Below are positions 3,381 to 41,191 of a stretch of 41,191 nucleotides of DNA, piece by piece. The position numbers were made by a program, and so were the translations under genes. The DNA is from Methanomicrobia archaeon. GTDB lineage: Archaea; Methanobacteriota_B; Thermococci; Methanofastidiosales; NM3. How positions within the stretch are numbered: the first letter of the stretch is position 1; every line of letters begins with the position of its first letter. The notes under the pieces were generated by a model that made no database searches, had not been told where the DNA came from, and worked only from the letters and a program-made list of their open reading frames with translations. Location: the NCBI GenBank assembly GCA_030603445.1, contig JAUVXU010000013.1:1-41191 (forward strand), written 5' to 3'.

Positions 3381-3860
3381 TCAACTCTTTTTGGTATTAT
3401 CTTCTAGGAGAAGATTATCTATGTTATTTATTATTTTGTTTATTGCCGTATATAACTCTCCTGTTTCTTGCTCCGTTAAGACGGAAAACATTTGAGATAT
3501 GAACTCTTTATCCTTATCCTCGCGTTTCTTCCAGAATATATTGTTCTCTTCTGTCAATTTGAGCCTGAGGATGCGATGATCGTTTGGGTCTTGCTCTATG
3601 TCCAAGAAGCGCTTTTTTTGAAGTTGTTTTGCTAGCTGTTTTGCATTCTGGTGCGATGTATTCATCTTTTCTGCAACTTCCTTGAGTGAAGGGGGGCTTT
3701 CAAAGAAGCGATGGATCACGGCTAGAATCATCCACTGCTTTGTCGTTATCCCGCTTTCTTTTAATTCCTTGTTTCCCAAGTATTCTAACTTTTTTTCTAT
3801 TAGAAAAAACATTCCAAAAAGGTATGCTAGCTTTTCATCTGTTATATTTTTCATATTCAC
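3381..3860 (-). CDS. MarR-family transcriptional regulator
   Basis: A 159-aa winged-helix DNA-binding protein of the MarR family, which acts as a dimer, usually as a ligand-responsive repressor. It shows an N-terminal helix, the KQWMILAVIHRF helix, the SLKEVAEKMNTSHQNAKQLAKQL helix-turn-helix (about residues 58-80), a wing (DPNDHRILRLKLT, about 92-105) and a C-terminal dimerisation helix. The DPNDxR pattern is characteristic. GTG 3858-3860 is used here; an ATG two codons in (3854) is equally possible. Only a weak GAGAG precedes them. It is upstream of priS and divergent from the HAD phosphatase at 4108. Palindromes in the shared 247-base region could be its operators, so the HAD/nitrilase pair or its own gene are likely targets. 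Its ligand is unknown. Confidence 0.9.
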   Translation of the reverse strand: MNMKNITDEKLAYLFGMFFLIEKKLEYLGNKELKESGITTKQWMILAVIHRFFESPPSLKEVAEKMNTSHQNAKQLAKQLQKKRFLDIEQDPNDHRILRLKLTEENNIFWKKREDKDKEFISQMFSVLTEQETGELYTAINKIINNIDNLLLEDNTKKS

Positions 3861-4107: not shown

Positions 4108-4857
4108 ATGAAATATGTTGTTTTATTCGATATGGATGGGGTGCTGACCCCCCAGGCCCAGGCCCTGCAACTAGCAAAGACCTTGGGAAAGACGGATGAG
4201 GCAATGAAGGTATTTTCGGGGCAGATGAGAAAGCAGATTGGCCTTGAATGGATATTATCGAAGGGGTCAATGTTCCTTAAAGGGCAAGACCCATCTATTT
4301 TGGAAAACACTGCCAAGAAGATGCTTATCACAAAGTCGGCCAAAAGCACCATAGAGCAGCTCAAGGAGGCATCGTACCATCCTGTAATCATTACTAATGG
4401 TTTTGAGGGGATGGCACAAGCATTCGGAAAGCGTATCGGAATCACAGAAGCATATGGGAACTCCCCTGAAGTGAAGGGAGGCGTACTTACAGGAAAGCTT
4501 TCTGATTCCAAGCTTCTTACAGTAAAATCAAAAGGGGATTTTATTAGGAAATACCTTAAAGATAGGGGAATTGCCAAAAAGGATGCCGTTGCAGTAGGCA
4601 ATGACGAGAATGATATGGCAATGTTTCAAGAGGTTGGGCTTACTATAGCATTCAACCCATCAAGATTTATAAAAAACTCTATCACAGATTCATTTTCAAA
4701 GGCCATAGATGGCAAAAGGAAGGATTTTATAAAGTTTACAAATGTTGTTGATATCGTTATTCTAAACAATGATCTCTCTAAGTTACTTCCTTTCTTAATT
4801 CCAAAACCAGATAAGTTTAGCAGCAATGTGAAAATAGATGAAAAGACGCAATTGTAG
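4108..4857 (+). CDS. HAD-superfamily phosphatase, SerB-like
   Basis: A 249-aa soluble haloacid-dehalogenase-fold hydrolase related to phosphoserine phosphatase. Motif I is FDMDGV (nucleophile D8, acid/base D10), motif II is the threonine of IITNGF (about 93-96), the motif III lysine is in KSKGDF, and motif IV is GNDENDMAMF (about 164-173). A helical C1-type cap of about 70 residues lies between motifs I and II. The family cleaves small phosphomonoesters; the substrate cannot be told. The last ~50 residues, after the usual HAD core, are unusual and polar. There is no clear ribosome binding site; a TATA-like TTTAAATA at 4019-4026 would give a leader of about 55 bases. The stop codon TAG is followed at once by the nitrilase gene, whose ribosome binding site overlaps it, so the two are translationally linked. 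Confidence 0.85.
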   Translation: MKYVVLFDMDGVLTPQAQALQLAKTLGKTDEAMKVFSGQMRKQIGLEWILSKGSMFLKGQDPSILENTAKKMLITKSAKSTIEQLKEASYHPVIITNGFEGMAQAFGKRIGITEAYGNSPEVKGGVLTGKLSDSKLLTVKSKGDFIRKYLKDRGIAKKDAVAVGNDENDMAMFQEVGLTIAFNPSRFIKNSITDSFSKAIDGKRKDFIKFTNVVDIVILNNDLSKLLPFLIPKPDKFSSNVKIDEKTQL

Positions 4858-39698: not shown

Positions 39699-40052
39699 TT
39701 AGAACATTTTAAGAATTATATGAGGAACTACACGTTCAACGCTATCTATGTTTCGAATAGTGTTTATCACAGTTGTTGCTTCATTGGTGTTCTTGCATAC
39801 GGCATAAGCTGAAAATGATGCGTCTCCTGTGGTGTAGAATTCTTGCTGTATGGAATCTATTTTTTTTAAGCTGGTTCCAACTGTATTTGTGTTCGCATCG
39901 GAGGTAGTGCTTATCTGTAGGCACATCGTTGATTCATATCCTGCATCTGGCCAGTTAATCGTTGCATTGTATCCCATGATGATGTTTTTTTCCTCAAACT
40001 GTTTGACTATCTTGCTTACAGTTGTAGTGCTCATACCAAGGTCTTTTGCACT
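39699..40052 (-). pseudogene. Lrp/AsnC-family regulator, N-terminus lost
   Basis: The frame encodes the end of a helix-turn-helix (SAKDLGMSTTTVSKIVKQF) and a complete RAM ligand-binding/oligomerisation domain (about 80 residues; FYTTGDASFSAYAVCKN is typical). The first two helices of the DNA-binding domain are missing: a stop codon (TGA, 40053-40055) lies just upstream in the same frame, where the sequence changes to a recombinase fragment. ATG 40034 inside the recognition helix could still produce a 111-aa protein with only the RAM domain. The 3' part is intact, so the break is at about 40050. A working regulator is unlikely; a RAM-only protein is possible. Confidence 0.8.
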
Positions 40053-40322
40053 TCAGGATTAGGAGAAACACTTGACAACACGATCCATTGAGAGAATATT
40101 TTTGGATGCCTGCAAAAAGGCAGGTGTTAAGAAGAATGCAACAGCGCATTCGTTAAGACATAGTTTTGCAACCCATTTATTGGAAAGGGGGGGTTGATTT
40201 AAGATACATTTAGGAATTATGGACATAAAAGTTCTAAAATAATAGAGATATACACACATGTTAGTAACAAGGAACTAAGCAAGATAAAGAATCCTTTGGA
40301 TGCTTTGCAGATAAAGGGGTGA
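40051..40322 (+). pseudogene. Tyrosine recombinase (XerC/D-like) C-terminal remnant
   Basis: Reading across three frames gives the end of a tyrosine recombinase: TTRSIERIF, then [15 protein letters not shown], then VDLRYI, then GHKSSKIIEIYTHVS, ending KIKNPLDALQIKG. The second catalytic arginine region (HSLRH) and the nucleophile tyrosine (IYTHV) are kept. Lesions: one extra G in a seven-G run near 40192; TAG in place of the usual glutamine codon after RYI; loss of two bases before GHKSS; and a likely frame slip before TTRSIE. The N-terminal two-thirds are absent. It is head to head with the truncated Lrp gene, both losing their 5' parts at about 40050. Confidence 0.85.
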
Positions 40323-40416
40323 TGAGTAGCATAAATGATAGCTTCACATGGTTCGGATATAACTTGTTATATAAAACCGTAACATTGAAAAACATTTAAA
40401 CAGGAGCAATAAAATC
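40323..40416 (+). promoter_or_regulatory. Promoter region of small membrane-protein gene
   Basis: A perfect hairpin ATATAAC-TT-GTTATAT (40357-40372) is flanked by GGTT and AACC. Part of it, GTTATATAAAACC, is a good TATA element, about 45 bases before the ATG. AGGAG lies about 11 bases before ATG 40417, a spacing a little long. Confidence 0.45.
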
Positions 40417-40812
40417 ATGAACAATCAAATTAGATGGTTAAAAATCGCATTTCTTATTGGGATAATAACTGATACATTAGCTTTAGTTCCAATGCTTTAT
40501 CAGCCTATGGCCAAACTTATGTGGGGATTCGATCAATTCAACGGCAATTATTTCTTTGCAATGGGGTATGGTGCTTCATTAATGGCAGGATGGACATTGC
40601 TTTTAATATGGGCTTACAAAAAACCATTGGAAAGAAGATTTATAGCACTTCTTACTATTGTAGTTATAATCGGGCTTGTTGCTACAGAAATTTTTGCAAT
40701 TGTAAATGGAAGTATCAGTATAAACAAAATGATACCAACATGGGTACTTCAAATCGTTCTACTAGGGTTATTTGGTTTTAGTTATACAAATTCAAAACAG
40801 GAACATGAATAA
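40417..40812 (+). CDS. Hypothetical membrane protein, four transmembrane helices
   Basis: 131 aa with four predicted transmembrane helices (about 8-27, 45-66, 75-93, 105-123) joined by short loops. Small and basic at both ends, it has no catalytic motif and I do not recognise it. It stands alone between the recombinase remnant and a hairpin that resembles an integron attC site, its stop codon lying only ~15 bases from that hairpin. One gene, one recombination-like site is the gene-cassette layout, so it may be mobile cargo. It could equally be an ordinary genome resident next to a decayed insertion. Confidence 0.7.
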   Translation: MNNQIRWLKIAFLIGIITDTLALVPMLYQPMAKLMWGFDQFNGNYFFAMGYGASLMAGWTLLLIWAYKKPLERRFIALLTIVVIIGLVATEIFAIVNGSISINKMIPTWVLQIVLLGLFGFSYTNSKQEHE

Positions 40813-40827
40813 CACTGCAATACCATA

Positions 40828-40918
40828 TAACACAACATATCTGGTTTCACTCCCGTTGGTCGCTCCATCTAAATTGTCCCCTACGGTCGTAACTTCAGAT
40901 ATGCTGGGAATGTTAGGC
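40828..40918 (+). other. Imperfect long-loop hairpin ending in GTTAGGC (attC-like)
   Basis: TAACA (40828-40832) pairs with TGTTA (40911-40915). After a four-base bulge on the right side, CA pairs with TG (40833-40834 with 40905-40906), then one mismatch, then an eight-base perfect stem CATATCTG (40836-40843) with CAGATATG (40896-40903). The loop is 52 bases. The right arm runs into GTTAGGC (40912-40918), which fits the integron core site GTTRRRY. Size and bulged two-box form are like attC sites. The left core (ATATAAC) fits the RYYYAAC consensus with one mismatch. It could also be a chance AT-rich dyad or a terminator. Confidence 0.35.
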
Positions 40919-40988
40919 GAAATGACGTTTAAGGTTTGATAAGTATATTTAATCTTAAAGGTTCAAAAAGCAAATTTTGAAAGACACC

Positions 40989-41191
40989 TCATACGTAGCT
41001 TGTTGCTATTTCTACACTATTGCTTATAGCTAAAAGCACATTATCACCGGAAAGTGTAAGTGCAACATAGCGATTGGCAGATTCAAGCAGCATGTGGTAA
41101 TTTCCATCATCTCTTAATATGTTGTAATAAATGTCCCAGTTTTTTATTGAGTGCAAATATGCATTGTAGAACTCTATAGCATCATTTTGAT
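40989..41191 (-). CDS. C-terminus of an unrecognised protein (runs off window)
   Basis: The minus-strand frame is open from the right edge to a TGA at 40989-40991 and encodes the last 66 residues of a protein, ending in EIATSYV. It starts outside the window. It is hydrophilic with aromatic residues (IEFYNAYLHSIKNWDIYYN) and no known motif. Codon choice looks native. It converges on the small membrane-protein gene, with the attC-like hairpin between them. Confidence 0.65.
   Translation of the reverse strand, partial: QNDAIEFYNAYLHSIKNWDIYYNILRDDGNYHMLLESANRYVALTLSGDNVLLAISNSVEIATSYV

Follow-up and report, generated by a model that had tools for sequence, protein, structure and literature searches.

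The right-hand end of a 41,191-base archaeal contig is likely to be what remains of an integron: a decayed element with one cassette, lying in an archaeal chromosome and belonging to a class whose integrases lack the IntI-specific (I2) domain and are encoded on the same strand as their cassettes. The gene in the cassette is, on homology, one shared with bacteria. We regard the element as an integron by its layout and not as a canonical IntI integron, because the recombinase remnant beside the cassette groups with recombinases devoid of the IntI additional domain.

The window, as the stretch of DNA analysed here is called, is the entire contig (C8) of 41,191 bases, and the source genome (G000) comprises 1.62 Mb in 48 contigs. 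At its right end a recombinase remnant, an attI-like site, a gene for a 131-aa protein and a hairpin follow one another in that order, all on the plus strand (Table 1). The layout originally predicted, an integron cassette next to a degraded recombinase, is supported by the homology of the cassette to one in a bacterial array, by the attI-like site found between recombinase and gene, and by the complementarity of the boxes that bound the cassette.

Table 1. Features of the element and its flanks in the window, and of the related cassette array in an Atribacterota genome (locus L003, in array order)
Feature	Location	Strand	Remarks
Lrp/AsnC-family regulator	window 39699..40034	-	PF01037, E 1.5e-8; left flank of element
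Tyrosine recombinase remnant	window 40063..40319	+	PF00589, E 3.4e-9; C-terminal part, N-terminal three quarters missing
attI-like site	window 40347..40377	+	border G|TTATAT, GTT at 40366-40368
Predicted gene cassette, 546 nt	window 40367..40912	+	attI border to attC border; right end by L003 homology
Cassette gene	window 40417..40812	+	131 aa; hydrophobic, mostly helical membrane protein, unknown family
attC site (by homology)	window 40825..40918	+	R'' ATATAAC, inner stem CATATCTG/CAGATATG, R' GTTAGGC
Host-type repeat, 42 nt	window 40928..40969		90% identical to C5:134197-134238, same genome; right of element
PhzF-like gene	L003		PF02567
attC	L003 4416-4498
Homolog of cassette gene	L003 4543-4938
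attC	L003 4963-5056
Acyltransferase-like gene	L003		PF00198
attC	L003 5897-5986		followed by another gene

A gene cassette in archaeal surroundings

All genome comparisons reported here rest on assemblies, many of them probably MAGs. Assembly or binning could in principle have joined the end of a bacterial integron to an archaeal contig; the element does sit at a contig end, and the close relatives of its cassette are bacterial. Such an artefact is nonetheless improbable, given that the contig is archaeal in content, with a gene for Alba (PF01918, E 4e-22) and others resembling Mre11/Rad50, that homologs of an FKBP gene on the left flank occur in genomes of the same genus and family, that the 42-nt repeat to the right of the element recurs on another contig of the same genome, and that a broken recombinase with an attI-like site is also present in another archaeal genome of this order (described below). 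The 5' end of the Lrp/AsnC-family gene appears to be truncated against the recombinase remnant. A search of 30 relatives for an uninterrupted (empty) site recovered none, returning only the left-flank FKBP gene and short stray matches. The 42-nt repeat is itself inverted-repeat-like, perhaps a small host repeat or a terminator; Rfam models applied to the window at gathering thresholds gave zero matches.

The lone membrane-protein gene expected with a hairpin close behind it is present, the hairpin starting 12 bases past the stop codon and spanning, as predicted, about 90 bases up to a terminal GTTAGGC. A Pfam search of the encoded protein returned nothing at E<=1, and AlphaFold predicts five helices at low confidence (pLDDT 61.8). 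Among 84,980 species genomes the protein has two relatives, in an Atribacterota MAG (L003, 84% at the amino acid level) and in a Chlorobiota MAG (L004, 83%), both titled CSMAG; homologs of the gene were not found in 100 genomic relatives, in plasmids or in viral contigs.

The Atribacterota relative is one of several same-strand cassettes in an attC array and is flanked there by two other attCs. Gene and hairpin together align between the window and this array (442 of 527 nt identical, 84%), and the alignment stops at GTTAGGCGAAAT, the attC border. With L004 the gene alone aligns (358 of 405 nt identical). No attC was seen behind the L004 homolog, and group II intron-like sequences lie upstream of it at 3521-3638 and 4767-4852; one matches RF02003 above its gathering score (E 5.1e-10), the second RF01999 below its own. 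The L003 attC DNA had no match in plasmids, nor a degenerate pattern of this attC type any in viral contigs.

Taken alone, the hairpin does not stand out from what AT-rich DNA produces by chance. Folding does show the attC architecture, with R''/R' boxes and an inner stem bearing extra-helical bases. Its folding z as single-stranded DNA is near chance (-0.60 for the top and -1.25 for the bottom strand; the third L003 attC reaches -6.3 and -5.2), and a home-made attC scanner, which ranks it the best site in the window, gives it a score of 9, a value also reached in 24 of 200 cases when the window is Markov-shuffled. A stricter second scanner, in which at least five of the seven R-box positions had to pair, did not report it. 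The folding energies and the scanner score would suit an ordinary gene followed by a hairpin that arose by chance or resembles a terminator. That reading is nevertheless very improbable in view of the homology to an array attC that ends at the cassette border, the kinship with another attC, and the exact complementarity of the hairpin's box to the box at the 5' end of the cassette. We accept the hairpin as an attC site because it is homologous to an attC of the L003 array and resembles the attC of another cassette there, so that its identity would follow from homology, box mismatch and near-chance energy notwithstanding. Aligned to the third L003 attC, which belongs to a different cassette, it scores 48 (shuffles: mean 18.4, sd 3.6, 0 of 2000 as good); aligned to the first, it scores 34 (1 of 2000 shuffles as good).

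A covariance-model match, proposed earlier as a check, did not materialize: a model (R1) built from six class 1 attCs found nothing at the window hairpin. This model recovers most of its training sites, the IMP-1 site with only 11.4 bits, and it also misses every L003 site; it is too narrow for deciding attC identity. A second model (R2), built from ten sites with the window attC included, was run over three whole genomes, where it returned one training site (the first L003 attC) and one weak place and missed the window attC; it was discarded as evidence. The recurrence of the hairpin that had been looked for was likewise not seen in the source genome, a search of which gave no second copy; related hairpins occur in other genomes. 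The window holds one attC, with the contig ending 273 nt beyond it at 41191, where surveys take at least two attCs within 4 kb as their criterion.

The left box of the hairpin, ATATAAC, has one mismatch to RYYYAAC, as had been pointed out at the start. This mismatch finds an explanation, because the box is the exact reverse complement of GTTATAT (40366-40372), the left border of the cassette. In a circular cassette the 5' border box and the R'' box together form the attC. When the window is aligned to L003, its GTTATAT falls on the cassette border GTTAGAT, and the leader from GTT to ATG measures 51 nt in both; 29 of these positions agree, a match equalled by 2 of 5000 shuffles. The TATA-like TTATATAA opens the cassette. 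By these sequence features the unit is an integron gene cassette, consisting of one ORF that is followed at the 3' side by an attC and has G|TT borders.

A recombinase family without the I2 domain

The predicted tyrosine-recombinase remnant upstream of the gene consists of two pieces in different reading frames (40063-40194 and 40203-40319), interrupted by stops and a frameshift. The first piece matches the archaeal XerA model (46.0 bits) and the integron-integrase model (43.5 bits) about equally, while the second is matched by TIGR02249 only (20.2 bits). The caution voiced earlier, that the remnant looks Xer-like rather than IntI-like, proved the most informative point of the original prediction. 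The closest relative found is a 356-aa recombinase without the IntI additional domain (L071:7016-8086), encoded in the same Atribacterota genome as the L003 array; the two pieces are 65% and 69% identical to it, versus 49% and 41% to IntI1.

In a FastTree tree the family forms one clade of 24 tips (support 0.925) with the remnant inside, grouped with two Atribacterota members (Atri101 and Atri145; support 0.986). The XerA genes occupy separate branches, with the remnant outside them, and the single IntI1 in the tree neighbours the family clade under midpoint rooting only. The region that constitutes the I2 domain in IntI1 (40 residues) is 9-11 residues long in all 23 family members compared and 10 in archaeal XerA; the remnant is too short to span it, and the absence of I2 is read from the clade members. 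Four family members scanned with TIGR02249 score 240.1, 240.6, 210.2 and 200.7 bits, under the cut-off of 265 (IntI1: 508.6). Three of the four pass the cut-off of 220 of NF040815, the archaeal XerA model (254.3, 240.2 and 228.6), and L072 fails it with 199.8; the NCBIfam title of this model is 'site-specific tyrosine recombinase/integron integrase'. The family resembles archaeal XerA in having an equally short stretch at the place of the extra IntI domain and differs from it in the tree and in the attI-like site, for which XerA-type genes offered nothing comparable.

An intact XerA-like gene is present separately in the source genome, on contig C5, and the remnant is, judged by its affiliation, not the conserved single host recombinase of XerA/dif chromosome resolution. 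A further decayed PF00589 stretch of a different type was seen in this genome (L012, G000:C11:112155-112340).

attI-like sites and cassettes behind the family

Homologs of the recombinase occur in 4 of 50 genomes of the phylum Atribacterota (E<=1e-40) and in one of 115 genomes of the window's own phylum (E<=1e-60), and close homologs (E<=1e-70) in 63 of 395 sampled genomes of the phylum to which the Chlorobiota-labelled MAG of L004 belongs. The 26 loci analysed are the best 20 places of this 63-genome survey, five other loci and the window. Boxes resembling attI were picked by eye in 24 of them; L117 and L082 showed none and were dropped before scoring. A gap-free profile applied in leave-one-out fashion recovered the box blind in 22 of the 24 loci, each at p<0.05 against its own locus, a procedure that limits and does not remove the bias of picking training boxes by eye. 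The two loci missed by the gap-free profile were the window and L081. With a profile from the 22 other loci, these two being left out of training, and with one 1-nt deletion permitted, the score is 17.4 for the window, 14.6 for L081 and 25.9 for an archaeal locus outside the training set (G005:C90); among 1000 random 200-nt stretches of the contig, 0 equalled the window's value. The window's attI region also resembles the region behind the L071 recombinase, at a level that 48 of 2000 shuffles reach. Among 30 control genes of XerA and XerC/D type the best profile score was 14.9 and the second 10.7; the best lies directly behind the intact XerA of the source genome itself (L011, G000:C5) and may be due to chance or be dif-like. 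Given the 1-nt shift, the window holds by sequence an attI with the canonical insertion point beside an integrase gene.

The archaeal locus just mentioned (L073:3136-4548) belongs to a second genome of the same order and presents a broken family recombinase, which lacks the segment bearing the catalytic Tyr, followed by a clear attI-like site, an ORF and the contig end. In the Atribacterota genome an attC-like array immediately precedes the intact recombinase, which is followed by an attI-like site and, where the contig ends, by the beginning of a further ORF. More generally, the family recombinases are followed on the same strand by ORFs and then, close behind these, by large attC-like hairpins (nine loci displayed). 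Across the 26 loci, attC-like sites scoring at least 9 number 14 in 109 kb downstream versus 4 in 127 kb upstream of the recombinase, and those scoring at least 11 number 8 versus 0; opposite-strand counts were similar in this paired test, because the hairpins are nearly symmetric. At least one same-strand site (score at least 9) lies within 6 kb downstream in 10 of the 26 loci; several loci stop at contig ends. The paired test replaced a first version that had compared attC densities near recombinases (7 in 314 kb) and in controls (0 in 218 kb). A search of the DNA behind the recombinases for long R-box stems yielded nothing informative.

The boxes themselves provide a further comparison. At four variable positions, the upstream border box (attI or the preceding R') was perfectly complementary to the next R'' in 9 of 14 cases, the window included, as against 0 of 20000 permutations; the first attC of L117, which has no attI box, and two rows of L003, both with three of four positions, were left out of this count. 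Two side observations belong here. Strong nested inverted repeats (GTTAGGC...GCCTAAC) lie behind an Atribacterota recombinase fragment at L080:8063-8203, in the orientation opposite to that of a cassette attC. In L119, L121, L127, L132 and others the contig ends near the recombinase, as repeats like those of cassette arrays would produce.

A lone attC cassette (SALIN-type) might instead have been captured in trans by a canonical IntI, and the remnant would then be a Xer-like or phage integrase with no relation to it. The account of archaeal integrons by Ghaly et al. (PMC9668308) does describe attC clusters in archaea that have no IntI, and canonical IntI above the TIGR02249 cut-off is encoded elsewhere in 7 of 23 genomes of the recombinase family (G155, G414, G206, G157, G156, G152 and G299), so that some arrays could be served by it. 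Three of the ten loci bearing attC-like sites are in such genomes (G299, G414 and G152), and six more together with G102 are in genomes with no match over the cut-off. We consider capture in trans unlikely for the window, since one of the only three PF00589 places in the source genome is found some 100 nt away from the cassette gene and shows the order and orientation seen in the clade loci, and since no TIGR02249 match over the cut-off was found in G000, G101 or G102, an absence that in incomplete assemblies is weak evidence.

Formation of the element and its place among integrons

The likely reading, a decayed integron of the I2-less class, suggests the following course. An integrase of this family, whose gene immediately precedes attI and the cassettes and shares their strand, would have captured a circular cassette by recombination at G|TT between the attI following that gene and the attC of the cassette, the latter folded from its bottom strand. 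This capture would have placed the gene for the 131-aa membrane protein behind the attI region. The sequence TTATATAA at the start of the cassette may act as an archaeal TATA box and so serve expression. The integrase gene would have decayed afterwards, losing its N-terminal part and acquiring stops and a frameshift, perhaps through a single deletion that also cut into the adjacent Lrp gene, and would have left the cassette fixed.

Much of this recalls class 1 (IntI1) integrons, with which the element has in common an attI, the G|TT border, attC hairpins and a 5' cassette box complementary to R''. It departs from canonical IntI integrons in an integrase family without I2, in the position of the integrase upstream of and on the same strand as the cassettes, and in attC stems with the two extra bases on the other arm and with larger loops. 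Ghaly et al. (2022, PMC9668308) reported integrons in 75 archaeal MAGs, with IntIs carrying the specific domain and with singleton attCs excluded. As far as the excerpted text goes, those integrons share with ours attC cassettes in archaeal MAGs, cassettes common to bacteria and an attI behind the integrase gene; their IntIs bear the IntI-specific domain, whereas here the clade lacks it and one cassette is left. The 'Integron-like subgroup' of Smyshlyaev et al. (2021, PMC8138268) likewise consists of simple tyrosine recombinases related to IntI. In the excerpts of that paper the insertion is called essential for integron function, and attI sites or cassette arrays are not tied to members without it, in contrast to the present family.

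Tools and surveys recognise integrases by the additional domain. According to the relevant extracts, it allows IntI to be told apart (IntegronFinder 2.0, PMC9024848), proteins were chosen by the additional domain or patch (Nemergut et al., PMC2426708), and recombination of single-stranded attC is tied to the I2 helix, intermediates lacking (eLife, PMC7790495). In the open-access PMC literature, preprints being outside this scope, we came upon no paper in which integrases devoid of the additional domain serve attC arrays, an absence that is not proof. Taken as one joint reading, we see about even chances that a widespread class of integrons, with integrases lacking I2, captures attC cassettes at an attI directly behind the integrase gene, and that this class is present in the sampled phylum of the Chlorobiota MAG and in Atribacterota and, in decayed form, in two archaea that belong to a single order. 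If so, such integrons would have been missed because surveys define IntI by its I2 domain.

A clade that lacks I2 and is followed by attI and attC cassettes would enlarge the range of integrons known, and would add a route by which cassettes pass between bacteria and archaea. The family would supply natural proteins for testing the origin of attC recombination and, if the reading is true, its integrons would be living counterparts of the state that preceded I2, or an alternative to it.
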